A DNA stretch of 63,401 nt, from NCBI GenBank assembly GCA_013003535.1, contig JABDIY010000104.1, positions 1 through 63,401 of the forward strand, in the 5' to 3' direction. Source of the DNA: Acidimicrobiales bacterium (lineage in GTDB: Bacteria; Actinomycetota; Acidimicrobiia; Acidimicrobiales; SZUA-35). The number at the start of each line of letters is the position of its first letter. Within the stretch, counting starts at the first letter, position 1. Shown here piece after piece: positions 1,930 to 16,038 of this stretch. The position numbers and the translations under genes were made by a program. The notes below the pieces were generated by a model. It did no database searches. It was not told where the DNA came from and saw only the letters and a list, made by a program, of their open reading frames with translations.

Positions 1930-4900
1930 ATGGATTTCGGAGTCCTTGGTCAACTGCTCGTCAGCGACGGCGATCGGGAGGTGGAGATCACCTCAGGGAA
2001 ACAGCGATTGCTGCTGGCGAATCTGCTCGCACACGGGGGCGAAGTGACCTCAACCGATCTCCTTATCGAGAACATTTGGAGCGAGACTGCCAACACCCGA
2101 CACGAGCGTGCTTTATGGGTTCACATGTCAAATCTTCGATCAACGCTCCAGCCTGACCGACCATCTCGTACAGAGGGCACGGTCATCCGTACCCGCCCAC
2201 CCGGTTATGTCATCGACACCGACGAGCACGAGATCGACGCCAACCATTTCGAACAGCTCGTAACTCATGGGAGATCGCTCATGGGGACAGATCCGGAGGC
2301 GGCGTCTGCAACGCTCCGCCGAGCTTTAGGACTTTGGCGAGGTAAGGCGTTTGAAGAATTCTGCTACGAGCCTTGTGTGGAGGCAGAAATCACTCGTCTC
2401 GACGAACTACGACTGCAGGCAGTGGAGGTGAGACTCGAGGCGGACCTCGCCCGAGGGTTAGCTGCCGAGCTGATCTCGGAGCTCCGCACCCTGACGGCCC
2501 AGCACCCCCTTCGAGAGCGATTCACCGCACAGCTGATGCTGGCGACCCACCGCGCTGGCCGTCGAGCCGAATCACTCCGAGCCTATTCCGCGCTTCGGAA
2601 TCGGCTCATCGAAGAACTGGGAATTGAGCCATCCAGTGATCTAAAGCGCCTCGAGACATCGATCCTCATGGACGACCCGGAGTTGGCCGCGCCCGGCTCT
2701 GGAATGACAACTGCGAAAGGCGTGAGGCCGGGCCTTGCGGTACGTGGTTACGAGCTCCGAGAGGAACTCACCCGCGGTGCAATAGGGGTGACCTACCGAG
2801 GATTCCAACCGGCGTTGGGTCGGCAAGTGGCGATCACAATGCTCTGGAGCGAGATTGCGGATGATGCCGATTTCATCAGAGGCTCCAAGGACCGGTTTCG
2901 CCAACTGGCGGAGCTGCAGCATCCCCACCTCGTGCCGCTTCATGACTACTGGCGGGAACCGGGCGCCGCATTCTTGGTTTCCCCACTGCTCCAGGGCGGC
3001 CGACTATCCGAAAGGGTCCGAGTCGGCCCGAAACTTACCGATGCCGAGGCTGAACGGTTGATCTTTGAAGTTGCTGGGGCCCTTGCGATTACGCACCGCC
3101 ATGGGCTGGTGCATGGTCGGATCAACGCCGACAGCATTGCCTTCGACGAATCCGGCGCCAGCTATCTGGTCGATCTGCATGGCGAGTGCGCTGCACGGTC
3201 GTCAAGGCCAAGCGCCGACGGTGGGCCGAGTATCGATGGCGATATCGCAGCGTTCAAATCAGTGGTCAACGAGGCGGTCCGTAATCAGGCGCGACCGCTG
3301 GAGGGAGCGCAGGACTTGGCCAGTTCGAGTGGCCGGGTGAGCCTCGGCCGGATCGTCGACGAAGCGTTCGGATCGATCCGCCCAACTCAACCGGAGCTTG
3401 GGGCCACGAGTTCGACGCCAACAGCGAATCCCTACCGGGGCCTCACCGCGTTCAGTGCGGCGGACGCAGTGGTCTTTCATGGCCGGCGCTCCGTCACGCA
3501 GCGCCTCCTGGCCCGCTTGGCCATACCCGGTCGCAGCGGTCGCTTCGTAGCACTTGTCGGACCGAGCGGGAGCGGAAAGTCCAGCACCGTTGCCGCTGGC
3601 CTTCTCCCTGCCCTGGCAGCGGGCGGCGTACCTGACTCGGCCAAGTGGTTTGTGGCGACGATGACACCGGGGACTCGACCCTTCGAATCGCTCGAAGCGA
3701 GCCTTCTGTCCATAGCCGTCGATCCACCCGCCGACCTCCTGGAACGGCTACTGGCAGACGACCAGGGCTTGATGCGTACCCTCCATCAGATCCTGCCCGG
3801 TGATCAGTGTGAGCTCCTCCTCGTAATCGACCAGTTCGAAGAGCTGTTCACGGGCGGTGACCCCGAGGCGACGTCATCTTTTCTCGACAGTATTGCCGCA
3901 GCGATCACTGCGCCCCGCTCGCGCCTTCGCGTCGTGGCGACGCTGCGTGCCGACTTCTACGATGCACCTCTTCAACACCTTGCGCTTGGTGAACTCCTTC
4001 GTGATTGCACCGAGGTATTGCCGCCGATGTCAGCCTCCGAACTCCAAGAAGCAATTGTTGAACCAGTCAAGCCGATGGGAATCCGATACGAGTCGGTTCT
4101 CGTGACCGAGATCGTCAGTACCGTGGTGGGGAGTCCTGGTGCACTCCCCCTTCTCCAGCATGCGCTGACTGAGCTATTCGAAGCTCGCCATAACCACATT
4201 ATTGATACGGCGAGCTATTACGACATCGGAGGAGTGTTTGGGGCACTCGCAACCCGGGCGGAGAAACTCTACGCAAAGGGCGACGAGACCGAAAGGGAGG
4301 CCACCCGCCAGGTCTTCTTACGGCTCGTTACGTTCGGGGATGGCGTGGACGACACTCGCAGAAGAATCCGAATGTCCGAACTAATGGAGCTGGCCGTCCC
4401 GAACCACACGGTTTCCGAAGTTGTCCAGAGGTTCTCGGCCCACCGCCTTCTCATTCACGACCTCGACGCTGCGACGCGTGAGCCGACTGTTGAAATCGCC
4501 CACGAGGCACTTCTCACGGCGTGGACTCGCTTGACCGAGTGGATTGACGACGCCCGCGAGACCGTTCGCCATCAGCGCCATCTCCGCGCAGCAATGGTCG
4601 AGTGGGTTGGTGCAAATCGGTCTCCGGATCACCTTCTCTCGGGAGGGAGACTGGAGCGAATAGCAGCAGCCTTGACCGATCCAGCTAGCTCGAGCTCGAC
4701 CGAGCGGGAGTTCCTCGACGCCAGCCTTGCACAGGAAGCGCTCGCTCGGCAGGAAGCAGCCAATGTTGCAAGCAAGCTCGTTGAAGCACAAATCCGCGCA
4801 AGGCGCCGGCTCAGGCTCGCTGTGATCTCCGCCTCGGTGGTGCTGCTCGTCGGCGTTCTCGGGATTGCGGCCGTGCTGCAAACTCGGGCCGCGAGGGACT

Positions 4901-6612
4901 CAGAGAATCGACTCGCATCCACCCTCGCGGCCCAAAGGCTAGTAGCGGCGTCACTCTTGGAGATCGAGCGGGACACACCCCTGGCTCTGCAGCTGGCAAT
5001 AGAAGCTGCCTACCAGACCGCCCCGTACGGCCACGTGACGCCAGAAGCCGTAGATGCCCTGCACTGGGCCATCCAGGAGTCTCATCTCACCTATCCGGCC
5101 CACGAGAACACACCGGTCGCCATCCGTTCGGGACCAGCCGGACCGGCAGGTGTTTTCGCGCTTCCACTGGACGAGATCGTTCAGCTGGCGCAGTCCGCGC
5201 CGGGGGCACCATTGTCCATGGAACAATGCGATAGGTACTTCAGCGACCGATCCTGTCCCGATCGACCCCGCCGCTTCCCCGCAGGCCTAGAGATTCTCGG
5301 TGGCGATACGGCATATGGGGTTGTGAAGCCGGGGCCCGGTGCGCTCGACGGCAGCCGGGTGGAGATCTTCGGGCCGATCTTCGGCGATCAGGGCTTGGTA
5401 GCCGAGATCGACAACTTCACCGAGCGAACCGGTATTCAGGTCACGATGCCGTTCATTTCACCTGAGCCCGAACTGAGCCGTCGGCGCAACCAGAATGAAA
5501 GCCTGCCCGACCTGAACTGGTGGCCACAACCGGCGGCATTGGTAGAGCAGGATCACGACACTCTGATCGACCTCTCGGCGTACCTCGACATCGAAACGGT
5601 TACTTCAGATTTTGGGTCATCGATCCTTTCGCTGGGAACGGTCGGATCCGACGGTTCATGGCCAAGCAAAGAAGGACGGCTCTTCGGGTTACCTCTCAGA
5701 ATCGACATCAAAGGCCTTGTTTTCTATCCTAGAGCCAAGTTCGAAGCTGCGGGCTATTCAGTCCCGACGTCATGGGATGAACTGATCGCTCTTTCAGATC
5801 AGATGGTTGCCGACGGGCTCACCCCCTGGTGTTTCAGTTTCGAGACAGGTGATCTGTTCACCGGTTGGCCGGGAACCGATCTTCTCGAAACCCTCGTCGT
5901 AAGGGAGGGAGGAGCCGAGTTCTACGACGCCTGGACTCGCCACGAGATCCCGTTCAACGATCCGATCATGCTTCGAGCGGGAAAAAAGCTGGAGAAACTG
6001 CTCCTCACACCCGGCTATGCCCGCGCGGGCTCTTCAGCCATCAGTCGCCTGAACTTCGAGGAAGAGGGACTCGGCCCCCTACTGGGAGACAATCCGTCCT
6101 GTTGGCTGTACCACCAGGCCGAGTTCCTTCTTGCCTGGCTACCCGCAGGGGCGACCGTGGGGAAAGACGTAGACACCTTTCCGTTCCCACCGAAAGACGG
6201 AGATGAGGTGGACCTCCCTGCACTCGGCGGAGGATTGTTGATGTCGGTCTACGCAGACAGACCGGAGATCCGCGAGTTCGTCAAGCACGTCGCCTCTCCG
6301 AGGTGGGGTGAGTCGTGGGCAGGCTTTGAAAGCTTTCTCTCGCCCAATGGCCGATTCGACATCTCCACCTACGGTGCCGCGTCATCGCCTGAGCTCGCCG
6401 CCTTCAGACAGAACATCGGTAGGTATGCAAAGGAGGCACTTGCCGCTGACGTGTGGCGGTTTGACGCGTCGGACCTGATGCCAGCGGCAATCGGGAGTGT
6501 CGACGGCGATCAGCCCGGAGCGTTCTACCAGGGAATGCTCGACGTTGTCGATGGCAGGCGAACGATCGAAGAGGTACTCAACGACATAGAAGCGGAGTGG
6601 CAGGAACTGTGA
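1930..6612 (+). CDS. Transmembrane SARP/BTAD - pseudokinase - STAND NTPase - solute-binding receptor
   Basis: 1,560 residues; ATG 1930 follows an AGAGGAGG ribosome site by 7 bases. Residues 1-95 look like an OmpR-type winged helix and about 95-260 like a BTAD tetratricopeptide domain, the SARP/AfsR arrangement. Residues about 273-440 have a protein-kinase fold with a glycine-loop remnant, but lack the VAIK lysine (T303), the HRD aspartate (R397) and an intact DFG (DLH, 415-417). Residues about 505-900 form a STAND-type NTPase with Walker A GPSGSGKS (544-551) and Walker B LLLVIDQFEE (Asp634). One transmembrane helix spans about 958-982. Residues about 1144-1555 resemble an ABC carbohydrate-binding protein (SBP_bac_1 type), with WPSKEGRLFGLP and SWDELIALSDQM segments typical of that fold. 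Known STAND proteins usually end in WD40 or TPR repeats, so the solute-binding end is unusual. Likely a one-protein sensor and transcription regulator; ligand unknown. Confidence 0.88.
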   Translation: MDFGVLGQLLVSDGDREVEITSGKQRLLLANLLAHGGEVTSTDLLIENIWSETANTRHERALWVHMSNLRSTLQPDRPSRTEGTVIRTRPPGYVIDTDEHEIDANHFEQLVTHGRSLMGTDPEAASATLRRALGLWRGKAFEEFCYEPCVEAEITRLDELRLQAVEVRLEADLARGLAAELISELRTLTAQHPLRERFTAQLMLATHRAGRRAESLRAYSALRNRLIEELGIEPSSDLKRLETSILMDDPELAAPGSGMTTAKGVRPGLAVRGYELREELTRGAIGVTYRGFQPALGRQVAITMLWSEIADDADFIRGSKDRFRQLAELQHPHLVPLHDYWREPGAAFLVSPLLQGGRLSERVRVGPKLTDAEAERLIFEVAGALAITHRHGLVHGRINADSIAFDESGASYLVDLHGECAARSSRPSADGGPSIDGDIAAFKSVVNEAVRNQARPLEGAQDLASSSGRVSLGRIVDEAFGSIRPTQPELGATSSTPTANPYRGLTAFSAADAVVFHGRRSVTQRLLARLAIPGRSGRFVALVGPSGSGKSSTVAAGLLPALAAGGVPDSAKWFVATMTPGTRPFESLEASLLSIAVDPPADLLERLLADDQGLMRTLHQILPGDQCELLLVIDQFEELFTGGDPEATSSFLDSIAAAITAPRSRLRVVATLRADFYDAPLQHLALGELLRDCTEVLPPMSASELQEAIVEPVKPMGIRYESVLVTEIVSTVVGSPGALPLLQHALTELFEARHNHIIDTASYYDIGGVFGALATRAEKLYAKGDETEREATRQVFLRLVTFGDGVDDTRRRIRMSELMELAVPNHTVSEVVQRFSAHRLLIHDLDAATREPTVEIAHEALLTAWTRLTEWIDDARETVRHQRHLRAAMVEWVGANRSPDHLLSGGRLERIAAALTDPASSSSTEREFLDASLAQEALARQEAANVASKLVEAQIRARRRLRLAVISASVVLLVGVLGIAAVLQTRAARDSENRLASTLAAQRLVAASLLEIERDTPLALQLAIEAAYQTAPYGHVTPEAVDALHWAIQESHLTYPAHENTPVAIRSGPAGPAGVFALPLDEIVQLAQSAPGAPLSMEQCDRYFSDRSCPDRPRRFPAGLEILGGDTAYGVVKPGPGALDGSRVEIFGPIFGDQGLVAEIDNFTERTGIQVTMPFISPEPELSRRRNQNESLPDLNWWPQPAALVEQDHDTLIDLSAYLDIETVTSDFGSSILSLGTVGSDGSWPSKEGRLFGLPLRIDIKGLVFYPRAKFEAAGYSVPTSWDELIALSDQMVADGLTPWCFSFETGDLFTGWPGTDLLETLVVREGGAEFYDAWTRHEIPFNDPIMLRAGKKLEKLLLTPGYARAGSSAISRLNFEEEGLGPLLGDNPSCWLYHQAEFLLAWLPAGATVGKDVDTFPFPPKDGDEVDLPALGGGLLMSVYADRPEIREFVKHVASPRWGESWAGFESFLSPNGRFDISTYGAASSPELAAFRQNIGRYAKEALAADVWRFDASDLMPAAIGSVDGDQPGAFYQGMLDVVDGRRTIEEVLNDIEAEWQEL

Positions 6613-6721: not shown

Positions 6722-7657
6722 TTAGCGTTCGTCGCGGATGTAGGGGACGCCGAGAGCGGCAGGAGCACCGATTCGGCGGCGCAAATCTCGAGTTCCCCAC
6801 ACCACCAGCACCAGCACCGTGAGCGCATAGGGCAACATCGCCAAGAACTCGGCCGGGATCTCCACGCCCTCACCCTGAAGCCAGAAGTTGGCCCGGCGCG
6901 CGAAGCCGAACAAGAATGCGCCCAACAGCACCCGCAAAGGTTTCCAGCTGGCGAATACCACCAGCGCCAAGGCGATCCAGCCGATTCCGGCGGTGGTTCC
7001 GTCCTGGCTCCACGCGGGCACCTGACCCAGCACCAGGTAGGCGCCACCCATGCCGGCGAAGGTTCCGCCCAGCATCACGTGCACATACCGGACCGCTCCC
7101 ACGGCCACTCCCATGGTGTCGGCCGTGCCAGGCGATTCGCCCACTGCCCGCAACGCCAAACCGGCCCGGGTGCGGTTGAGGTAGAACGCGATGATCAGGG
7201 CGAACACCACGGTGGCGTAGAACATGGGGTCCTGGTTGAACAGCAGCGGACCGAGCAGTGGAATGTCGGCAAGGGGGCCCCATGCGGTGGGTTTGAAATC
7301 GGTGGCCAGCGGCAGGCCTTCGATCGACTTGCCGATGAACGTGCTGAGCCCGGTTCCGAAGATCGTCAGGGCGAGTCCAGAAACGATCTGGTTGGCTCGA
7401 AGCGTCACCGACAAGAACGCATGAATCGAGGCAAATAGGGTGCCCCCCAGCGCTCCGGCGAACAGTGCCAGCCACAGCGACCCCGTGGCATCACCGATCT
7501 GAAATGCCGTCACCGCCCCCACGAGCATCATGCCCTCCACGCCCAGGTTGAGAACGCCGGCCTTCTCGCTCAGGAGCTCTCCCAACGCGGCGAGGGCTAT
7601 GGGTACTGCCGCGGCTACCGATGCGGCCAGTGTCAGTACGAATGCGGTGTCGTTCAT
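6722..7657 (-). CDS. ABC transporter permease 2, nucleoside/BMP type
   Basis: 311 residues with about eight membrane helices. The segment LSEKAGVLNLGVEGMMLVGA near the N terminus and the GGTFAGMGGAYL stretch are typical of the second permease in BMP-dependent importers (NupC/YufQ type in the BPD_transp_2 family). It belongs in the cytoplasmic membrane, where it pairs with the product of the adjacent gene. ATG 7657 overlaps the upstream gene's stop by four bases (ATGA), indicating translational coupling. It is the last gene of a four-gene operon running 11529 to 6722. The frame is open further upstream, but that portion is the neighbour read out of frame. Confidence 0.93.
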   Translation of the reverse strand: MNDTAFVLTLAASVAAAVPIALAALGELLSEKAGVLNLGVEGMMLVGAVTAFQIGDATGSLWLALFAGALGGTLFASIHAFLSVTLRANQIVSGLALTIFGTGLSTFIGKSIEGLPLATDFKPTAWGPLADIPLLGPLLFNQDPMFYATVVFALIIAFYLNRTRAGLALRAVGESPGTADTMGVAVGAVRYVHVMLGGTFAGMGGAYLVLGQVPAWSQDGTTAGIGWIALALVVFASWKPLRVLLGAFLFGFARRANFWLQGEGVEIPAEFLAMLPYALTVLVLVVWGTRDLRRRIGAPAALGVPYIRDER

Positions 7658-8778
7658 GCGGTTGCCTCGGCGATCGCATCGGCAGTCGTTACCCGGCGGG
7701 TCAGCCTCAGCCGGTTGTTGCCGAACACTTCGCCGCCGATCGCAAAGAGCAAGATCGCACCCTGCAACATCAGCGAAACCTCCACCGGAACCCGCTCCCC
7801 CGGCAGGCTCTGCAGCGCCAATCCGGCATTGCGGATGCCGCCGAGGAACGTGGCGACGAAGATGATGGCAAACGGGTTGTAGCGGGCCAAGGCCGCCACC
7901 ACGATTCCGGTGAATCCGATTCCCAGTTCCAGCCCGTTCGGATCCAGGGCAAACGCCCGACCGGCGACCTCGGTGGCGCCGGCCAGCCCACCTAGTGCAC
8001 CGGAGATCAGCAGTGCGATGATGACGGTTCGCCGCACGGGGATGCCGGCATAGGCCGCCGCATTTGGTGACGAACCCACCACGTTCATGTCGAAACCGAG
8101 TGAGGTGAACCGGATGAGCGCCCAAATTCCAATGGCGATCCCGATGGCCACGATCAACCCCCAATGGAGGCGGGTGTTCCCGAATGCCTCGAACCGTGCC
8201 TCCGGGGGGATCTTGCGGCCCTGGGGGAAGTTGGCCACTTCAGTGTCACGCCAGGCCGAGTTTGAACCGAAAATGAGATACTTCATCAGAAAGAGGCCAA
8301 TGAAGGTGAACATCAGCGTGGTGATGATTTCGCTTGTCCCCAGGTAGGCCTTGGCCAGTGCGGGCGGCAGCGCCCAAAGCGCTCCACCGATAGCGCCAGC
8401 GATCAGAACCACCGTGACGCCCAGGATCGTTGGCAGCCCTTCGCTGATCGTCAAACCCGCCCACGAACCAAAAATGGCGCCCAGGTAGAGCTGACCCTCG
8501 GCCCCGATGTTGAACAAGTTCATCCGGAACACGATGGCTGCGGCCAGCCCGGTGAGGATCAGCGGGGTCGCCAGAGTAAGGGTGTCGGTGATGCCGAACT
8601 TCGACGTGAAGCTGGCATCGAACAACGCCCGGTATACCGTGATCGGGTTGAAGCCTTCGATCGCCAGGAACGCGCCCCCCACGATCAGCGCAGCGAGCAC
8701 GGAGAGAAACGGCGTGAGGGCATTGCGCCACCACGGGAAGTCCATGCGCCGCTCGAGTCTCACGTTGAACGGGAGCAT
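7654..8778 (-). CDS. ABC transporter permease 1, nucleoside/BMP type
   Basis: 374 residues. A short basic cytoplasmic start is followed by a first membrane helix and the segment FRMNLFNIGAEGQLYLGA, which is diagnostic for the larger permease of BMP-family importers (YufP/NupB type). About eight to ten helices follow, and EFAGRAFALDP-like loops are replaced here by TEVAGRAFALDPNGLELG. ATG 8778 overlaps the stop of the ATPase gene (ATGA) and its own stop overlaps the start of the next permease, so all three membrane components are translationally coupled. Substrate by family: nucleosides or related compounds. Confidence 0.93.
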   Translation of the reverse strand: MLPFNVRLERRMDFPWWRNALTPFLSVLAALIVGGAFLAIEGFNPITVYRALFDASFTSKFGITDTLTLATPLILTGLAAAIVFRMNLFNIGAEGQLYLGAIFGSWAGLTISEGLPTILGVTVVLIAGAIGGALWALPPALAKAYLGTSEIITTLMFTFIGLFLMKYLIFGSNSAWRDTEVANFPQGRKIPPEARFEAFGNTRLHWGLIVAIGIAIGIWALIRFTSLGFDMNVVGSSPNAAAYAGIPVRRTVIIALLISGALGGLAGATEVAGRAFALDPNGLELGIGFTGIVVAALARYNPFAIIFVATFLGGIRNAGLALQSLPGERVPVEVSLMLQGAILLFAIGGEVFGNNRLRLTRRVTTADAIAEATA

Positions 8779-10325
8779 CAGCCCGCTACCTCCGCTGGAG
8801 AAGCCCCGACATCGTCATCGGCAGAAACGCCGGCCATGGCCAGTCCGATCTGTTCGATCGTGAGGTCATCGGTACGGCCTTGCAAGGCGATTTGACCCCG
8901 GTAGAGCACGGCAACGCGGTCGGCCAAGCTACGGACCTCGTCGAGGTCTTCTGAAATGATCAATACGGCGGCACCCCGTTCCCGGGCTTCGTGCAGGAGA
9001 CCACGGACGAACTCTGCCGCGCCGATATCGAGACCTCGGGTGGGGCTGGAGACGATGATGACCTGCGGTCCATCCTCGGTCCCGAGGCTTGCCAACTCCC
9101 TGGCCAGCAGCACCTTCTGGGAGTTTCCGCCCGAGAGCAAGCGGGCATGAGCTTCGGTTCCCGGCGTCTTGATCTCGTAGTCGGTGATGGCCTGACCCAC
9201 CTCGCGACGGGCCCCTTTGCGATCCACCAAAAACTTGCGTGGACGGGTGAGCAACATATTGTCGGTGAGGCTGAGACCCGGCACCAGACCGGTGCCCAAG
9301 CGGTCCTCGGGCACGAACGCCAGGCCGGCGTTCCGAGCGGCCAGCGGTCCGTGGTTGGTGACGCTGGAGCCGTTCACAGCTACGGATCCGGCATCACAGC
9401 CATCGATTCCGGCCAGCAGCCGAGCGAGCGGGCGTTGGCCGTTCCCGGCCACACCGGCAATGCCCAGAATCTCACCTCTGCGAAGGGTGATGTCTACATC
9501 ATCAACCGCATTCTGGCCGTCGATAGACAACGTGAGTCCCCGACACTCCAGCAGAACGTCAGCCTGCCCCGATTTGGCGGTGGCCCGGCGCGTCTCGGAC
9601 TCAACAGGTCGGCCGACCATGAGCTCGGCCAGATGACGTTGATCTGTATCCGCAGTTGCGACCTCCCCGGTCACGCGCCCCGCTCGCATCACCGTCACTC
9701 GGTCACTGATGCTCATCACCTCACCGAGCTTGTGACTGATGAAAACGATGGCTTTGCCGGCCGCGGTCATGGCGTTCACCGTGATGAACAACGCCTCAAC
9801 CTCTTTGGGGGTGAGCACTGCGGTTGGTTCATCCAGCAGCAGCACCTCGGCGTCTCGATAGAGCATCTTCACGATCTCGACGCGTTGACGTTGACCGACG
9901 GTCAAGTCGGCGATCCGGGCCCGAGGATCTATGGGAAGTCCGAACCGTTCGCCGATCTCGGCCACCCTGGTTTCGACCACAGACTGATCGATCAGGCGCG
10001 GTTGATCAGGGTCACCCAAAATCACGTTTTCGGCAACGGTGAAACGATCCACCAGACGGAAATGCTGGTGGACCATGCCGATCCCCTGGGCCAGGCCATC
10101 CCGCGGGCTGCGGAGAAGAGTTGGCTCGCCGTTGCGCTCAACATGGCCCTCGTCGGGCTGGTAGAGCCCACACAACATGGCAGCCAGCGTGGACTTGCCG
10201 GCACCGTTTTCCCCCAGAATCGTGTGGACCTCACCGGCGAAAACGGTGAAGTCCACGGCGTCGTTGGCCAACACACCCGGGAATCGCTTGGTCGCAGCGA
10301 CCGCGGCGATGGCCGGCGTGGTCAC
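8778..10325 (-). CDS. ABC transporter ATPase with two nucleotide-binding domains
   Basis: 515 residues with two ABC domains in one chain. The first has Walker A GENGAGKS, a Q-loop HQHFRLV, the signature LTVGQRQRVEI and Walker B LLLDEPTAVL. The second has a degenerate Walker A (GVAGNGQRPLA), signature LLSGGNSQKVLLAREL and a weak Walker B (IIVSSPTRGLD). This layout matches NupO/YufO and sugar ATPases in which the second site is impaired. GTG 10325 is chosen because it lies 35 bases after the binding-protein stop; a longer reading into that gene adds nothing conserved. It energises the two permeases encoded downstream. Confidence 0.92.
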   Translation of the reverse strand: MTTPAIAAVAATKRFPGVLANDAVDFTVFAGEVHTILGENGAGKSTLAAMLCGLYQPDEGHVERNGEPTLLRSPRDGLAQGIGMVHQHFRLVDRFTVAENVILGDPDQPRLIDQSVVETRVAEIGERFGLPIDPRARIADLTVGQRQRVEIVKMLYRDAEVLLLDEPTAVLTPKEVEALFITVNAMTAAGKAIVFISHKLGEVMSISDRVTVMRAGRVTGEVATADTDQRHLAELMVGRPVESETRRATAKSGQADVLLECRGLTLSIDGQNAVDDVDITLRRGEILGIAGVAGNGQRPLARLLAGIDGCDAGSVAVNGSSVTNHGPLAARNAGLAFVPEDRLGTGLVPGLSLTDNMLLTRPRKFLVDRKGARREVGQAITDYEIKTPGTEAHARLLSGGNSQKVLLARELASLGTEDGPQVIIVSSPTRGLDIGAAEFVRGLLHEARERGAAVLIISEDLDEVRSLADRVAVLYRGQIALQGRTDDLTIEQIGLAMAGVSADDDVGASPAEVAG

Positions 10326-10359
10326 AACCGGTCCATCGCTTCGGAGTGGAACACCGCTG

Positions 10360-11529
10360 TTAGCCAGCCGGAGAGCCGACGACGCCCTCGACGAAGTAAT
10401 CCATGCCGAGCAGCGTTCCGAGGTCGGGGGTTTCACCGGCGGCCACCATTTCGGTCCCAGACTGATCGTTCACAGGACCGGTGAAGGGAGCGAACGTTCC
10501 AGCGATGATCTCGGCCTTCACGGCTTCGATCTGGTCCCGAACATCCTGTGGCACCGTGTCGGACACTTCGGACAGGGTGACCATTCCGTCGGCCATGTTG
10601 CCGTAGTACTGATCCGAAGTCCACGAGCCTGCCCTTACGTCTTCGACGGCCTGGGTGTAGAAGGGACCCCAGTCCCAAACCGGGGCGGTGAGCCAGGCGT
10701 CGGGGGCGAAGCGGGACATGTCGTCGTTGTAGCCGAGCCAATACGCCCCAACCGCGGTAGCGGCCTCACCGGCTGAGGCGGTGTCCTGATGCTGGGCCAC
10801 TACGTCGGCGCCGCCGGAAAGCACCGCCTCTGCGGCTTCTTTCTCCACGACCGGATCAAACCAGGTGGAGGTCCAGACCACGTCAACCGTGACGTCAGGA
10901 TTCACCCGTTGGGCACCCAAGGTGAAGGCGTTGATGCCGCGCAACACCTCGGGGATAGGGAAGGCGGCGATGTAGCCGATCTTGTTGGTTTCGGTCACGG
11001 CGCCAGCGGCCATGCCGGACAGGTATCGAGCCTCTTCAGCTGCGCCGAAGTAGGTGCCCATGTTGTCGGAAGTCTTGAAGCCCGTTGCGTGTTCGAATTT
11101 CACGTCGGGGAATTTTTCCGACACTGCGAGCATCTGATCCATATAGCCGAACGACGTGCCGAAGATGATGTCGTTACCTTCTCGTGCGAGGCGTTCGAAC
11201 ACCGCTTCGGACTCGGCCCCCTCGGGGACGTTTTCCAGGAAGCTGGTCTCCACGCAGTCGCCGAGGCTGGCCTCGAGAGCTTGCCGGCCGTCATCGTGGC
11301 GCTTGGTCCAGCCGGCGTCACCGACTGGGCCGATGTAGACGAACGCCGCTTTCGTGGGCTCACCATCACAGCCCGAAGCGCCGTCATCTCCGGCCTCGGT
11401 GGTTTCACTGCTACTGCCGCAAGCTGCTGCAATCAAGGCCAGAACGGCGAGAAGAGCGGCGATTTGGCTCCACGGGCGGCGATGGGATTGCCTGCGGTGG
11501 AACGGGCGGCGGTAATCGGGTGTGGTCAT
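10360..11529 (-). CDS. BMP-family solute-binding lipoprotein
   Basis: 389 residues. ATG 11529 follows an AGAGGAGAG ribosome site. A basic N terminus and hydrophobic helix end in a lipobox at Cys37 (IAAACGSS), so the protein should be lipid-anchored outside the membrane. The mature part carries BMP-family features: AAFVYIGPVGDAGWT, the GTSFGYMDQML strand and loop, and VVAQHQDT in the ligand cleft. BMP proteins such as PnrA/Med bind purine nucleosides; here nucleoside or a related ligand is inferred. It is the first gene of the importer operon ending at 6722. Confidence 0.92.
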   Translation of the reverse strand: MTTPDYRRPFHRRQSHRRPWSQIAALLAVLALIAAACGSSSETTEAGDDGASGCDGEPTKAAFVYIGPVGDAGWTKRHDDGRQALEASLGDCVETSFLENVPEGAESEAVFERLAREGNDIIFGTSFGYMDQMLAVSEKFPDVKFEHATGFKTSDNMGTYFGAAEEARYLSGMAAGAVTETNKIGYIAAFPIPEVLRGINAFTLGAQRVNPDVTVDVVWTSTWFDPVVEKEAAEAVLSGGADVVAQHQDTASAGEAATAVGAYWLGYNDDMSRFAPDAWLTAPVWDWGPFYTQAVEDVRAGSWTSDQYYGNMADGMVTLSEVSDTVPQDVRDQIEAVKAEIIAGTFAPFTGPVNDQSGTEMVAAGETPDLGTLLGMDYFVEGVVGSPAG

Positions 11530-11673
11530 CGGTTCTCTCCTCTGTGGCGGGGCTTTGTATGTGCGCGCAGCGCCTTGAACAGTTCTCCGTTCACGCCCCT
11601 GGTGCATCAAGAATCTAACCGCGAACAGTGAGCTGTGCGAAAAGAACGAAAAGTTGAAACACACCGTTCATGC

Positions 11674-11748: not shown

Positions 11749-13491
11749 TCAGGGTGTGGAGAAGGAATACTCCATTAGCGTGCGGTTGTCCCAGGTGAAC
11801 CCGGTGATCGTGGCCGTGATGCTGTCTCCGCTGTCTTCTATTTCCAGGGTGCCGTAATGCCCGCCGCCAGGCACTGTTCCCTCGCTGTATGGTCCACCTT
11901 TGATCGATCCCAGCCGATCCAGCGCGGCAGCATTGAACAGCGGGAAGCCCGGGCCGGGGGTGTCGCTGTAGTTGGTGTTGGTCCCGTCATCGACAGCCAC
12001 CATGTGCGCGTCGCCGCTCACCATGAGGAGGTTGTCGATGTTGTTGTTGGCGATGTGGTTTGCCAGCTCGGCCCGTTCCACCGCATACCCACCCCAGTGA
12101 TCGGCACCATCTTGGGCAGTGGCGATCCACGGCACCGGATTCAACCACACCACCAGTTCATGGGTCTGTGACGCAGCGAGGATCTCGTTCTTGAACCATT
12201 CCTTCTGCTCAAAACCCAACATGCTGGGGGCGTCCTCGTTCTCATCGTTGTCCAGGTTCCGGGCTGAGCGGGCGTCGGTGAGGATGTATCGAACGCGGCC
12301 TGCGGAGAACGCTTGGTACACCGCCGTCTCATCGCCGGACAGGTCATAGCTGGGGACGTATTCTCGGTAGGCAGCCATGGCCGCTCGCCGGCTGGGTGAA
12401 GACCCGTCGGCGTCATTTCCTCCATAGTCATGGTCATCCCACATGTAGGCGATGGCGGTGGATCGATACAGGGCAGACTGGGCTGGCATCGACAGCGTGA
12501 GATCCATGACCTCCTGATAGCGAACGATGTCGTTCCTGCCGTTGTCGCCGTAGTGCAGGTCGCCGGCGATCAGATACAGGAGCGGATCGGCTTGGCGGAT
12601 CGAATCGAACACGGCGCCGTTCGATCCCACGCGAGCGCACGCCCCGATCGCCACCACATAGGACACCGGTCCGGTGGGGAAGGTCCGGAACGTCCCGGCT
12701 CTTACGGTGTCCAACTCACCGTCCAGTTCAACGGCGTAGTGGTAGCGAGTGTCTGGAGCCAGCTCGGTGAGGTCGAAACCGATAACTCGCCCGGATATGT
12801 CTCGGGCGTCGAACCAGCGTGCGCTCCCAAGTCCGACGTCCTCGGAGACCGCGATTCTGGCGGTGGTGAAATCTCTACCCGGCGTGGCCCGGATTTCGGC
12901 CGAGTCAGCCGTGACGGCACCGGCCCAGATCCACTCCAATGCACTGTCTGGCAACGGTGGTTCCACCGACTCGGGGTGGGTGGGACCCCAGTAGTAGTCG
13001 TACACCAGATAGCCGGTGAAATATCCCGCGGCCGCAGCCACCAACGACACTGCCAACCCTATTCCCGCGGCGCGGGCCGAGACTTGGCTCGCTGCATAAA
13101 TGAGCCAAAGAGCCCCCGGCGCCGCCAGCGCCGCAACCACTACCACGGCATGACTCGCGACAAGTTGATTGGTTGCAAATGCGATCAAAGCAGCCGCTGC
13201 AAACGCTGCCAGAACACCACCCACCAGCTCCCAGCGAAGCGCAACCACGAATGCGACACCGAAGAAAACAGTGAAGATCGGCCGCACGCTCACGTCGAAC
13301 GCCGCACCACCCGGCTTGTAGTCCAGCCACCCAAACCGGGTGCCTAACAGACTCAGGGCGATGGCCAATGTTCCAAGGACCAGAGCAACCCAACGGATCT
13401 GAGACACCATTCGATCCGGCAGCTCGAGGAGGTGGGTCACCTCCGGGGCCGGCTGGTTCATGAGCGTCTTCGGTTCCATCGGCAACGGCAC
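11749..13491 (-). CDS. PhoD-like phosphatase with N-terminal membrane domain
   Basis: 580 residues. Residues about 30-165 contain about five membrane helices, ending near a YDYYWGPTHPE segment. From about residue 190 an N-terminal beta domain and a metallophosphatase domain follow: AGDLHYGDNG, MWDDHDYGGND and the SGDAHM motif, which match PhoD/alkaline phosphatase D metal ligands. The catalytic domain should face outside. The usual Tat signal of PhoD is absent, and membrane helices replace it. ATG 13491 is 5 bases after the PPK2 stop; ATG 13479 is an alternative. It is the last gene of the six-gene operon starting at 18606. Role by family: phosphodiester or phosphomonoester hydrolysis for phosphate scavenging. 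Confidence 0.87.
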   Translation of the reverse strand: MPLPMEPKTLMNQPAPEVTHLLELPDRMVSQIRWVALVLGTLAIALSLLGTRFGWLDYKPGGAAFDVSVRPIFTVFFGVAFVVALRWELVGGVLAAFAAAALIAFATNQLVASHAVVVVAALAAPGALWLIYAASQVSARAAGIGLAVSLVAAAAGYFTGYLVYDYYWGPTHPESVEPPLPDSALEWIWAGAVTADSAEIRATPGRDFTTARIAVSEDVGLGSARWFDARDISGRVIGFDLTELAPDTRYHYAVELDGELDTVRAGTFRTFPTGPVSYVVAIGACARVGSNGAVFDSIRQADPLLYLIAGDLHYGDNGRNDIVRYQEVMDLTLSMPAQSALYRSTAIAYMWDDHDYGGNDADGSSPSRRAAMAAYREYVPSYDLSGDETAVYQAFSAGRVRYILTDARSARNLDNDENEDAPSMLGFEQKEWFKNEILAASQTHELVVWLNPVPWIATAQDGADHWGGYAVERAELANHIANNNIDNLLMVSGDAHMVAVDDGTNTNYSDTPGPGFPLFNAAALDRLGSIKGGPYSEGTVPGGGHYGTLEIEDSGDSITATITGFTWDNRTLMEYSFSTP

Positions 13492-13496
13492 AGCTA

Positions 13497-14339
13497 CTAG
13501 TGTGGCGGCGCCAGTCGACTCCGAAGTTCCTCCAGGTCAAATGTCGGCTGAGGGTAGGTTGGGCCCATGTCATCGATGGTGGCGATAATCAGGTGCCCGA
13601 TCACCCAGTTTCGGTACCACTTGTGGTCAGCAGGAATGACATACCAGGGCGCGTAGTCGGTGCTCGTCTGACCAACGACGTGGCTATACGCGGCCTGGAA
13701 TTCGTTCCATGACTTCCGTGTCTCCAAATCTGATTCAGCGAACTTCCACCGCTTGTCGTCCCGGCGGAGTCTGCGCAAGAACCGTTCCCGCTGCTCGTCG
13801 AACGAAATGTGCAGGAGGCACTTGATGATGGTGGTTCCGCCGTTCACCAGCTCTTCCTCGAAGGCGTTGATCTCGTTCATGCGCTCGGCGATCTCAGCTT
13901 CGTCCAACGTGCCGAGCGCCTGGGGAACCAGAACGTCTTCGTAGTGGGAGCGGTCGAAGACGCCCAGTTGCCCCGGGGCTGGCAGCTCATTTCGATATCG
14001 CCAGAGGAAATGGTGATCGAGTTCCTCTTTCGTCGGTTCCTTGAACGATGCGGTCCGCACGCCCGCGGGGTTCATGGCGATCACCACGTGCTTGATTGTT
14101 CCGTTCTTCCCCGAGCAATCCAAGCCCTGCAACACCAGCAAGATTGAGCGCTCCTCCTCGGCATACAACAGCTCGTGCCGGTCGAACAAATCGTCCTGCA
14201 TTTGGCCATCCACATAGTCTTTGGCGTCAGATTTGGATTCGACGAACGGAGTGTCCGTCGTGGAGTAGCCAGCCATGTTGACAGCGCCGTCTACCGGCCG
14301 TGCCTGCAATGCCTCTCGAAGCTCGCTGATCGTTGGCAC
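13497..14339 (-). CDS. ppk2: Polyphosphate kinase 2 family protein
   Basis: 280 residues. Walker A-like GLDCSGKNG at about 72-80, Walker B-like GVFDRSHYEDVL at about 126-137, and the lid region FLRRLRRDDKRWKF identify the PPK2 family, cytosolic enzymes that phosphorylate nucleotides at the expense of polyphosphate or the reverse. Subclass (NDP- or NMP-kinase) cannot be read safely. The GTG at 14339 shares one base with the TAG of the preceding gene (TAGTG), so translation is coupled. It sits between a lipid kinase and a PhoD-like phosphatase, a context of phosphate storage and turnover. Confidence 0.93.
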   Translation of the reverse strand: MPTISELREALQARPVDGAVNMAGYSTTDTPFVESKSDAKDYVDGQMQDDLFDRHELLYAEEERSILLVLQGLDCSGKNGTIKHVVIAMNPAGVRTASFKEPTKEELDHHFLWRYRNELPAPGQLGVFDRSHYEDVLVPQALGTLDEAEIAERMNEINAFEEELVNGGTTIIKCLLHISFDEQRERFLRRLRRDDKRWKFAESDLETRKSWNEFQAAYSHVVGQTSTDYAPWYVIPADHKWYRNWVIGHLIIATIDDMGPTYPQPTFDLEELRSRLAPPH

Positions 14340-15223
14340 TAGCTAATCCCTTCATCGTTGGTGGGGCCGGGCAGTCGGATCGAAATTGCGTCGGGCAGGA
14401 CCGAGATGTCCAGCCGTCGCGTGGGGTCGCGATCCTCACCGTCCAGTTCATAAGGACGCGGCTGGCGGTGCTCCACGAGAATTTCACGACCATGAGTACG
14501 CCGAGCAAGCTCGAGCGGAAGCGGTTTGTGACGAAAGAGGCGCCACGCCACCGTGAGCCATTCGCGGATCTTGGTGGGCGACATGACCGCCACATCCAGT
14601 AGACCGTCATCAGGTTCGGCGTCGGGGAAGACGTCGATGCCTCCCGTGATCGTCCCGAAGTTGCCGACCAACACCATGGAGGTTCGCCCCTGAAACCATG
14701 ATTTCCCGTCTACCTCCACCGTGGTGTGAACCAGATCGGTGCGGAGGTTCTTGGCGCCGGAGATGACATAGGCGATCGTTCCCAACCGGGACTTCACCTT
14801 GTCGCTGGCGTCGCGGATCATGAGGGCGTCGAACCCCGAACCGGCCATGACTGCAAACGTTTCACCATTGATCTGGCCGAGGTCAATTCGTTTGCTGTCA
14901 CCACGGCCCGCACTGTTCGCAGCGTCCATACCGTCAGTAATCGACAGATTGTGGGCCAGGAGGTTCCCTGTTCCCAACGGCACGATTCCCAATGAGGTAT
15001 CAGAGTCGGTCAGCCCTTCGAGGCAGGATCGCACGGTTCCGTCGCCGCCACAGGCAATCACTACAGTTGCTCCGTTCGCCACCGCCTTCGCGGCCTGCCC
15101 AGCCCCGGGGTCCTGGGGCGAAGTCTCCACCAACTCGGTGTCGGCACCAAGAGCCGCCTTGAGCTCGTCCTCATCGGGGGCACTTCCGCTGGCGGGGTTC
15201 CAAATGGCCACCCGGTGCCTCAT
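14339..15223 (-). CDS. Diacylglycerol kinase-like lipid kinase
   Basis: 294 residues. The N-terminal domain carries the nucleotide-binding motif VIACGGDGTV and the following GIVPLGTGN, both diagnostic of the DAGK catalytic domain; the C-terminal beta domain holds GSGFDALMI and LLDVAVM. The family phosphorylates diacylglycerol or similar lipids at the membrane surface. ATG 15223 overlaps the TGA of the PAP2 gene (ATGA, 15220-15223). Kinase and phosphatase side by side could form a phosphatidate/diacylglycerol cycle; that is inference from the pairing. Confidence 0.92.
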   Translation of the reverse strand: MRHRVAIWNPASGSAPDEDELKAALGADTELVETSPQDPGAGQAAKAVANGATVVIACGGDGTVRSCLEGLTDSDTSLGIVPLGTGNLLAHNLSITDGMDAANSAGRGDSKRIDLGQINGETFAVMAGSGFDALMIRDASDKVKSRLGTIAYVISGAKNLRTDLVHTTVEVDGKSWFQGRTSMVLVGNFGTITGGIDVFPDAEPDDGLLDVAVMSPTKIREWLTVAWRLFRHKPLPLELARRTHGREILVEHRQPRPYELDGEDRDPTRRLDISVLPDAISIRLPGPTNDEGIS

Positions 15224-16038
15224 CGGACCATCTCCGGATCGAGAGTTTCGGCATGCTGGTGTAGGCGGGGTGGTTCGTCGCTCCCCAGTGCATCGTTGGG
15301 TCGGCCGAACAGTCGCACACCGATCCATACCGATACCAGACCCAGAACAATGCCGGCCGAGACATCGCTCAGGAAATGCATCCCCTGATACATGCGAGCC
15401 CAGGCCACGGTGAGGGCAACCACCACGCTCGCAGCTACCGCCAGTGCCCGAGCCCAGACTGCCTTGGTGTGCCAGAACACGATGACGGCCAACGCCGAGT
15501 AGACGGTGGCCGCCGCCACGTGACCGGACGGGAACGACGTTGCAACCGGCGACTCCAACAGTCGGTCGACATCGGGTCGTGGACGACCCACAATCGTGCT
15601 GGAGGTCGCATAAACGCTGGCTTCGAAGATAAGCGTGAACCCGACCAGCGCCGCCTCATGCCAGCGGCGCCACCGCCACAACATGACACCAGCTATGACC
15701 AGTGAGGCGGCGATCTTCACGTACGTGTCTGCCATGAAAGCACCCCAATGCGCGAGGTCGTTGTTTCTTTCGGTTCGCCCATCGGCCAGGCTCTGAGCCA
15801 ATTCGTTGTCGAACTCGGTTATCGCATTGGGAGCGAACCAGTCCGACAGGGCTAACCCGACCACGGAGTACAGCGCCACCAGGGTCACGAACGCCCCGGC
15901 GATCCACCGCCAATGCTCCCGGTGGAGTGGCCAGGTTGTCTTCAGGAACGAGAGCCCTTCGGGATGGGTACGGTCACGGTCTACAGTTCTGCGCCGAAAC
16001 CCCGTCCGGTCGGTGGTGTCAAAATACGAGTCAGTCAT
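15220..16038 (-). CDS. PAP2-family membrane phosphatase
   Basis: 272 residues with five to six membrane helices after a charged N terminus. PAP2 motifs are present: VGRPRPDVDRL (motif 1 region, RP present), SFPSGH (motif 2) and ARMYQGMHFLSDV (motif 3, with A in place of the usual S before R). The family dephosphorylates phosphatidate, undecaprenyl pyrophosphate or related lipid phosphates. It overlaps the upstream DUF1206 gene by 8 bases and the downstream lipid kinase by 4, so the gene order is coupled. Confidence 0.92.
   Translation of the reverse strand: MTDSYFDTTDRTGFRRRTVDRDRTHPEGLSFLKTTWPLHREHWRWIAGAFVTLVALYSVVGLALSDWFAPNAITEFDNELAQSLADGRTERNNDLAHWGAFMADTYVKIAASLVIAGVMLWRWRRWHEAALVGFTLIFEASVYATSSTIVGRPRPDVDRLLESPVATSFPSGHVAAATVYSALAVIVFWHTKAVWARALAVAASVVVALTVAWARMYQGMHFLSDVSAGIVLGLVSVWIGVRLFGRPNDALGSDEPPRLHQHAETLDPEMVR

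Follow-up and report, generated by a model that had tools for sequence, protein, structure and literature searches.

We analyzed a stretch of 63,401 nucleotides from an Acidimicrobiales bacterium (assembly GCA_013003535.1, contig JABDIY010000104.1; hereafter the window), in which the gene at positions 1930-6612 encodes a single-chain receptor. The protein joins a SARP-type DNA-binding head, a degenerate protein kinase domain, an nSTAND1 nucleoside triphosphatase (NTPase), one transmembrane (TM) helix and an ABC-type solute-binding protein (SBP) domain, and this order recurs in other genomes. Related receptors carry beta-propeller matches where the SBP stands here. A divergent neighbor encodes a zincin-like protein, and conserved repeats with the spacing of SARP operators lie between the two genes. 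We consider it rather probable that the receptor is a membrane-tethered one-component transcription activator, in which a solute outside the cell would drive the STAND module and the SARP head would activate both its own gene and the zincin-like gene. The original prediction, made from this DNA alone, had recognized the modules of the receptor correctly but understated the locus, since the divergent gene, the operator-like repeats and a relic of a WD40-type tail had been overlooked.

Domain layout of the receptor

The features of the receptor gene were delimited as follows.

1930-6612, + strand: receptor gene, 1560 amino acids, SARP-pseudokinase-nSTAND1-TM-tail-SBP (homologues, Pfam, hydropathy)
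1993-2211, + strand: OmpR-type winged helix DNA-binding domain, residues 22-94 (Pfam PF00486, Trans_reg_C)
2233-2667, + strand: BTAD domain, residues 102-246 (Pfam PF03704)
2749-3174, + strand: degenerate protein kinase domain, residues 274-415 (Pfam PF00069, motif table)
3430-4626, + strand: nSTAND1 NTPase, residues 501-899 (Pfam PF20703, motif table)
4822-4878, + strand: single TM helix, residues 965-983 (mean hydropathy 2.76)
4885-5079, + strand: helical stalk after the TM helix, residues 986-1050 (three helices in the model)
5107-5265, + strand: relic of a WD40-type C-terminal tail, residues 1060-1112 approximately (reciprocal profile test, invariant columns)
5341-6609, + strand: ABC-type solute-binding domain, residues 1138-1560 approximately (Pfam PF01547, model, fold search)

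The reading frame was unbroken across all 1560 residues. An assembly join or a frameshift was ruled out by this open frame and by the same arrangement in homologues from other assemblies. All Pfam domains scored above their curated cut-offs, i.e. the winged helix (E = 2e-9, 37.7 bits, cut-off 26.2), BTAD (1e-40, 140 bits, cut-off 22.1), the kinase (5e-9, spanning only profile positions 1-141 of 263), nSTAND1 (5e-110, 369 bits, cut-off 27.1) and SBP_bac_1 (residues 1155-1459, 1.5e-11, 45.3 bits, cut-off 26). The profile search thus recovered BTAD, Pkinase, nSTAND1 and SBP_bac_1, all named beforehand from motifs, and matched Trans_reg_C in addition. An OmpR-type winged helix followed by BTAD is the layout of the SARP family, and the best PDB matches of the winged helix by sequence were AfsR and EmbR.

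In the kinase domain, the VAIK lysine is replaced by T303 and the HRD aspartate by R397, while the DFG aspartate is kept (D415); the protein does not combine the three residues of an active Hanks-type kinase. At least one of the three was also gone in L206, L208, L209 and L210, giving five of the nine visible kinase domains among the SBP receptors. The other four (L020, L138, L049 and L205) retained all three, and three relatives had no kinase at all. The suggestion of a dead kinase therefore holds for the window copy but not for the group. In nSTAND1, Walker A (544-552) and Walker B (629-640) were intact, as expected for this NTPase family, and both were kept in every aligned protein where they were visible (L135 starts past Walker A).

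The membrane helix, claimed earlier at about residues 958-982, was found and placed at 965-983, with AQIRARRRLRLA on its N-side and QTRAARDSENRL on its C-side. Helix hydropathy was at least 2.1 at this position in 13 of 13 aligned SBP-type receptors, and the N-side was more positive than the C-side in 12 of them, with one tie. A single helix by hydropathy with this charge bias would be in keeping with the N-in/C-out topology of ToxR/CadC-like proteins. Beyond the helix, Pfam reported no repeats in the receptor and no TPR at the place of a C-terminal sensor; the superstructure-forming repeats that serve as sensor in classical STAND proteins are missing from this position.

Residues 985-1560 were modeled with AlphaFold from a 20-sequence alignment (predicted local distance difference test (pLDDT) 90.2, predicted template modeling score (pTM) 0.75). 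The model comprised a helical stalk and a short hairpin followed by an SBP fold, as had been supposed for this region. Best PDB matches in Foldseek were AcbH, a Thermus glucose/galactose-binding protein and the glucose-binding protein ppGBP (E = 1e-16 to 1e-15), and AcbH and other sugar binders also came first when a profile of the SBP alignment was searched by sequence. The ectodomain shows both the family profile and the fold of SBP_bac_1, which together suggest a sugar as the class of ligand. Carbohydrate binding proteins of the CUT1 type (AcbH, glucose/galactose-binding proteins) share this fold and sequence family; they are parts of transporters, whereas in the receptor the domain follows a TM helix within one chain, and the window neighbors tested showed no CUT1 permease.

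The ectodomain has neither a signal peptide or lipobox of its own nor a transporter operon, and sits behind the internal helix. Among 10 distinct stand-alone SBP relatives, seven had, by eye, a lipoprotein-type cysteine past a hydrophobic stretch (L010 lacked it, the signal region of L039 was out of view, and L092 was a fragment). A MalF/MalG-type permease motif adjoined the stand-alone SBP at 14 of 16 loci, the exceptions being L155 and L063. Since most of the relatives read are lipoprotein-like and most loci have an adjoining permease, and since the helix has a positive-inside bias, the solute-binding domain is likely to lie outside the cell; these are pointers, not proof. Cys1100, Cys1109, Cys1301 and Cys1391 were invariant in 13 of 13 receptors, the first two of them within the tail relic. 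One SBP relative of the same genome (L063:266-2119), encoded in a frame of 618 residues, has two hydrophobic stretches, and its short contig yielded no permease motif.

Recurrence and exchange of the ectodomain

The order SARP-STAND-TM-SBP was observed in the window protein, in 11 complete homologues (eight with and three without the kinase) and in one contig-cut homologue; the two halves are not always separate genes. Full-length matches were detected in two other genomes of 99 (own genome included), namely G030 (45% identity) and G012 (42%). When named genomes were scanned with the SBP and the segment that follows the TM helix, four loci emerged. Two were the G030 and G012 matches already found; the others were L138, which carries a kinase-containing SBP receptor in a metagenome-assembled genome (MAG) of an uncultured Ilumatobacter, and L135 (54% identical) in a MAG named Ww501, where the contig end cuts the receptor and leaves SARP and kinase out of view.

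Wider sampling, with 247 genomes from the class and 246 from the phylum (each set including the own genome), added eight SBP receptors. Five had the kinase (L205 and L206; L208, L209 and L210) and came from two genera, both outside the window's order. The three kinase-less ones were found within the class (L207) and outside it (L211 and L212, the former on the one-contig assembly G802). Only two candidates per genome were scored in the order scan and up to five in the class and phylum samples, and fusions may therefore be under-counted. G203, whose contig ends ahead of the ectodomain, and the long frames L213-L218, with an SBP match only, were left out of the counts. L061 in G040 was rejected as a fusion, as its N-terminal part of 600 residues resembles an open frame that arose by chance ahead of a lipoprotein SBP. 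No paper describing a SARP-STAND-SBP receptor was recognized in open-licence PMC full text (subscription papers and preprints lay outside the search).

Paralogues in the same genome, and many homologues too, share the N-terminal half and TM helix but continue with beta-propeller matches. Alignments of the receptor with its own-genome paralogues extend to residues 1026-1041. Three own-genome receptors showed propeller matches after the helix, in two of them below curated cut-offs; in the closest paralogues (C95 and C157) the matches were weak and below cut-off, and the C-terminus of C92 is cut. The earlier proposal that an SBP replaces the usual STAND sensor repeats is borne out by these receptors.

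A trace of the exchange was detected between stalk and SBP. A C-terminal motif of several propeller-type receptors (e.g. LPLDPAELAELARSRVQRGFTTEEC...C) recurs there in the SBP type. When a profile of this SBP-type segment was compared with 16 receptors lacking the SBP, the extreme C-termini of six matched with 6.9 to 33 bits (best independent E value 5e-10), the best of 320 shuffles reaching 1.6 bits; three more receptors were barely above the shuffles. With the reverse profile, built from WD40 tails, 12 of 13 SBP-type receptors exceeded all 260 shuffles; the window's own tail scored 1.5 bits, which is not significant alone. As the tail relic matches in both directions, the propeller blades were lost and their C-terminal tail was retained between helix and SBP, i.e. 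the ectodomain was exchanged.

A second binding-protein family, Bmp, was found in three kinase-less receptors (E = 1e-34 to 2e-39). These SARP-nSTAND1-TM proteins (L219:2787-4658, L220:3160-5091 and L221:5257-6861) carry a Bmp/PnrA-type ectodomain. The G012 receptor has an extra C-terminal domain of 260 residues (L049:9525-10304) with no Pfam match, which shares 47% identity over 236 residues with the C-terminus of L219, one of the Bmp-type receptors.

In a STAND tree of 54 rows, ten kinase-branch SBP_bac_1 receptors and four others formed a clade of 14 (100/97). The kinase-less SBP receptors fell into a neighboring clade of nine, whose other six rows showed no kinase either; the ectodomain was read in two of these six, both Bmp. 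SBP receptors stand inside a wider clade (94/68) with the kinase-less relatives and four non-SBP receptors, of which three had weak propeller matches and one was cut. An earlier tree was restricted to sequences covering more than 75% of the domain, so that G203 was missing; L138 grouped in it with G030, a member of the window's family. A single origin of the SBP receptors within one family-level group was dropped when receptors were found outside the order and the class, and these trees are compatible with different numbers and directions of exchange.

The divergent zincin-like gene and the operator-like repeats

Upstream of the receptor, three further features were delimited.

1129-1782, - strand: divergent linked gene encoding an N-terminal hydrophobic segment and a zincin-like domain (HExxH, downstream Glu)
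1783-1929, no strand: divergent intergenic region from linked gene to receptor, provided that the linked gene starts at 1782
1838-1864, no strand: operator-like repeats, CTTAAGG (1838-1844), CTTAAGG (1847-1853) and CTTAAGT (1858-1864)

The start of the linked gene was taken as the GTG at 1782, with the ATG at 1743 as an alternative. HExxH and the downstream glutamate, the residues of a zincin site, were invariant in 15 of 15 aligned linked-gene proteins and present in five of five more. The alignment comprised 14 of 19 scan hits and one protein from L107; omitted were the hits in G031 and G000:C92, which are interrupted by a stop, the first of the tandem copies in G004:C294, the fragment in G004:C358 and the weak hit in G015. 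The window protein had no match in Pfam, NCBIfam or PADLOC and none by sequence in the PDB. Its structural model (pLDDT 77) gave a zincin as best Foldseek match with a modest E value of 4e-3. In the fold list (VIA), Z reached up to 9.4, mostly for M1 aminopeptidases and also for anthrax lethal factor and other zincin families. We read this as a modest, clan-level resemblance to zincins, as Z scores of this size can reflect a mere common arrangement; the common HExxH fits the resemblance. Because of its N-terminal hydrophobic segment, the protein is predicted to be exported.

The linked gene adjoined eight of nine uncut kinase-containing SBP receptors (window, G012, G030, L205, L206, L208, L209 and L210), as well as the receptor of G203, which the contig cuts before its ectodomain. 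Among 18 other SARP-kinase-STAND receptors, several of them with short flanks, it was adjacent to three (G000:C92, G089:C192 and G021:C13); 11 of the 18 had an ectodomain that was read as propeller-like, one of these three among them. A scan of relatives detected the zincin-like gene in 13 of 99 genomes (19 hits, six of them beside a receptor). Unlinked copies were noted behind SnoaL-like stretches (L088:5304-6989 and L092:262-2184); the copy in L088 has a lipobox-like signal, and its SnoaL-like match is below the curated cut-off.

The shared promoter contains CTTAAG-N5-CTTAAG at 1847-1863, which can be written as a heptamer pair with a 4-nt spacer (CTTAAGG-CAGC-CTTAAGT, 1847-1864). Operators of SARP-LAL proteins are described as two heptamers separated by 4 nt (PMC5930380), and the spacing rule given for SARPs is 11 or 22 bp (PMC10936776); the repeats match this spacing, and SARP binding is predicted. 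Similar pairs spaced by 11 bp lie ahead of the G012, G030, L138 and G203 receptors and of the G012 linked gene. The pattern YTTAWGKNNNNNYTAAGT gave seven matches (six sites) in five genomes, all at promoters of the module, and its reversed form gave none; as the pattern was derived from those sites, the result speaks for its specificity and does not count as a discovery. Under a leave-one-out matrix, the site in the window ranked first of 126,768 positions (score 19.2), followed by 11.0 in the same promoter and 10.9 elsewhere.

Independent support came from five further kinase-containing loci, which had been fetched by protein similarity without the motif: CTTAAG-N5-CTTAAG was present in the divergent promoter of all five. 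In 18 genomes, the exact form CTTAAGN5CTTAAG occurred seven times, once each in seven genomes and always at the receptor module. These seven were already known to contain it, and what the scan adds is that the form is missing from the rest of these genomes and from the 11 others searched. The G030, G203 and L138 genomes, whose sites have diverged, are among the latter. Nine matches with one mismatch were found elsewhere in the 18 genomes. A site with two mismatches elsewhere in the window's genome (L178), near a CBS-domain-like frame, was taken as chance.

No CTTAAG pair was detected in the examined promoters of SARP-kinase-nSTAND1-TM-propeller receptors. The own-genome propeller-type paralogue C157 has a perfect repeat of another sequence, TTGCAAG-TCGG-TTGCAAG (G000:C157:17581-17598), whose exact form occurs once in the genome. 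Upstream of the L138 receptor lies a frame (L138:4052-4663) that encodes a hydrophobic segment and repeats of the RPAYLIIQDEIDKALAER type; a weaker operator-like site, scoring 12.5, precedes this frame by about 60 bp.

Downstream in the window, positions 6722-11664 (- strand) hold a Bmp-type ABC transporter cluster (two permeases, an ATPase and a Bmp-family binding protein) that is convergent with the receptor gene. A PhoD-like phosphatase, a PPK2 polyphosphate kinase and a diacylglycerol kinase-like gene follow in a row (11749-15328, - strand).

Known systems, proposed mechanism and alternatives

Membrane transcription factors of the ToxR/CadC type have a cytoplasmic winged helix, one TM helix and an extracytoplasmic sensor; they are not known to contain an NTPase switch or BTAD, and their sensor fold differs from the SBP of the receptor. 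MalT is soluble, with its sensor and NTPase on the same side and a DNA-binding domain of the LuxR type. Like the receptor, it uses a STAND NTPase to gate a DNA-binding domain, its inducer being maltotriose (PMC6468293, PMC10936776). AfsR of Streptomyces coelicolor shares the winged helix and BTAD head followed by a STAND-type NTPase, but the cited domain map shows a tentative TPR sensor and no membrane helix (PMC10936776), whereas the receptor contains nSTAND1 along with a kinase domain, a TM helix and an SBP ectodomain. Its score with NF053617, the NCBIfam equivalog model for AfsR, was 156.6 bits against a cut-off of 1430. In actinobacteria, the GlnH-GlnX-PknG system likewise includes a solute-binding protein proposed as trans-membrane sensor for a cytoplasmic signaling protein, but it is described as three separate proteins with a kinase output and amino acid ligands (PMC6069109). 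The SARP-kinase-nSTAND1-TM-propeller receptors of the same order are alike in the N-terminal half and TM helix, several also in the tail motif, and differ in having propeller blades instead of the SBP. The receptor is neither an AfsR nor a classical STAND protein with a repeat sensor; it is built like a large SARP combined with a membrane one-component regulator.

In the mechanism that we propose, the C-terminal SBP would face the outside and bind a small molecule, most likely a carbohydrate. Closure of the SBP on its ligand would be transmitted through tail, stalk and the single helix to nSTAND1 in the cytoplasm. This domain would open in an NTP-dependent manner and thereby release or cluster the SARP heads, the window kinase domain acting as a structural or regulatory spacer. 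In AfsR, NOD and TPR are reported to inhibit the SARP part and ATP to relieve this inhibition (PMC10936776); by analogy, nSTAND1 should hold the SARP head in the receptor. SARPs are described as binding in side-by-side dimers (PMC10936776), which would make ligand-induced pairing of receptors a simple route. Such dimers would occupy the CTTAAG repeats with their 11-bp spacing and switch on both the receptor gene and the neighboring zincin-like gene; the local operator-like site and the divergent neighbor argue for a small private, autoregulatory regulon. If exported, the zincin-like protein would be in the same compartment as the sensor and might liberate the ligand, cleave the receptor or have a different target, which is a guess. 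That an outside solute opens a DNA-binding head in an NTP-dependent manner, as the original prediction had suggested, is plausible, and the repeats and the linked gene lend it support.

Several observations weigh against this reading. In classical STAND proteins, autoinhibition is described as working through contact between sensor and NOD (PMC6468293), and here the membrane would prevent such contact, so that ligand closure would have to act through tail, stalk and helix, perhaps by altered clustering. The PQP motif, common in stand-alone relatives, is gone from the fused SBPs of G012, G030 and L138, and ligand binding may therefore have changed or been lost in them. L138 has the repeats without an adjacent zincin-like gene, and beside the three kinase-less SBP receptors neither the gene (the upstream side of L207 is cut) nor the repeats (only 182 bp upstream in L207) were found. 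The five confirming loci stem from two genera only. A scan allowing up to three mismatches failed to single out the sites: other places tied with them in G030 and G203, the G012 receptor site was outranked by over a dozen others, and the reversed pattern used as control was commoner than the motif in all five genomes. Promoter shuffles alone were weak for most loci, and the region upstream of the receptor yielded no consensus promoter of the sigma-70 type. As CTTAAG is self-complementary, another regulator could read the repeats as a symmetric dimer, with the targets of the receptor lying elsewhere. The lack of repeats before kinase-less receptors would suit this explanation, which we nevertheless judge unlikely given that the exact site occurs only at the receptor module in 18 genomes, that the spacing agrees with descriptions of SARP operators (PMC5930380, PMC10936776), and that a paralogue of the same genome has its own perfect heptamer-4-heptamer repeat, exact once in the genome.

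Other explanations concern what the receptor senses. The SBP-like domain could be a protein-interaction ectodomain that recognizes a peptide, a cell-wall fragment or the zincin-like protein, and no small solute. Its occupation of the place of propellers in otherwise similar receptors, the erosion of the PQP motif in part of the group and the frequent zincin-like neighbor are consistent with such a role. We doubt it in view of the high-confidence SBP fold with sugar binders as best matches, and because Bmp stands at the same place in three related receptors (L219, L220 and L221); two binding-protein families at one place suggest that ligand binding is what gets recruited. It is quite improbable that the SBP docks on ABC permeases of the cell, so that the receptor would read transport flux and not free ligand. 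MalT with MalK provides a precedent and the permeases beside stand-alone SBP relatives would fit, but the window's downstream transporter belongs to the Bmp type and not to CUT1. We give equally little weight to a conflict or defence module, in which STAND sensor, degenerate kinase and peptidase-like neighbor would form an alarm against phages or competitors and solute sensing would be secondary. One conflict system is described with caspase proteins of variable C-termini, which include STAND NTPases or TM helices with an extracellular PBP domain (PMC7159879), and PADLOC kinase models match the window protein (PD-T4-6 best, E = 2e-24). These PADLOC matches are confined to the kinase (259-423, PD-T4-6 and others) and a P-loop stretch (534-560, mad3), however, with none in the linked gene. 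Pfam reported no caspase domain in the receptor, whose head is that of a transcription activator, and the operator-like site is a local one. Conflict System 4, as described, pairs an EACC1 gene with a caspase-fused second gene (PMC7159879); here the linked gene is zincin-like and Pfam gave no caspase match in the receptor.

Solute-driven activation thus remains our preferred reading. We put forward only tentatively the wider view that these proteins form a new class of transmembrane STAND receptors in Actinomycetota, with the far-side sensor swapped from WD40 to SBP_bac_1 or Bmp, and that the kinase-containing SBP_bac_1 branch is a private single-operator circuit with an exported zincin-like protein. 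If this holds, the zincin-like protein could release the sensed solute or peptide, as in feed-forward foraging, or trim the receptor and end the signal. STAND sensors are understood to contact the NTPase directly, and here the drive is predicted to pass through one membrane helix. The signal sensed by large SARP-STAND regulators is described as open even for AfsR (PMC10936776); a sensor from a ligand-binding family, a predicted operator and a predicted adjacent target make the question of sensing directly testable. With WD40 traded for two families of binding proteins, the group also illustrates a way in which bacteria may redirect a receptor.

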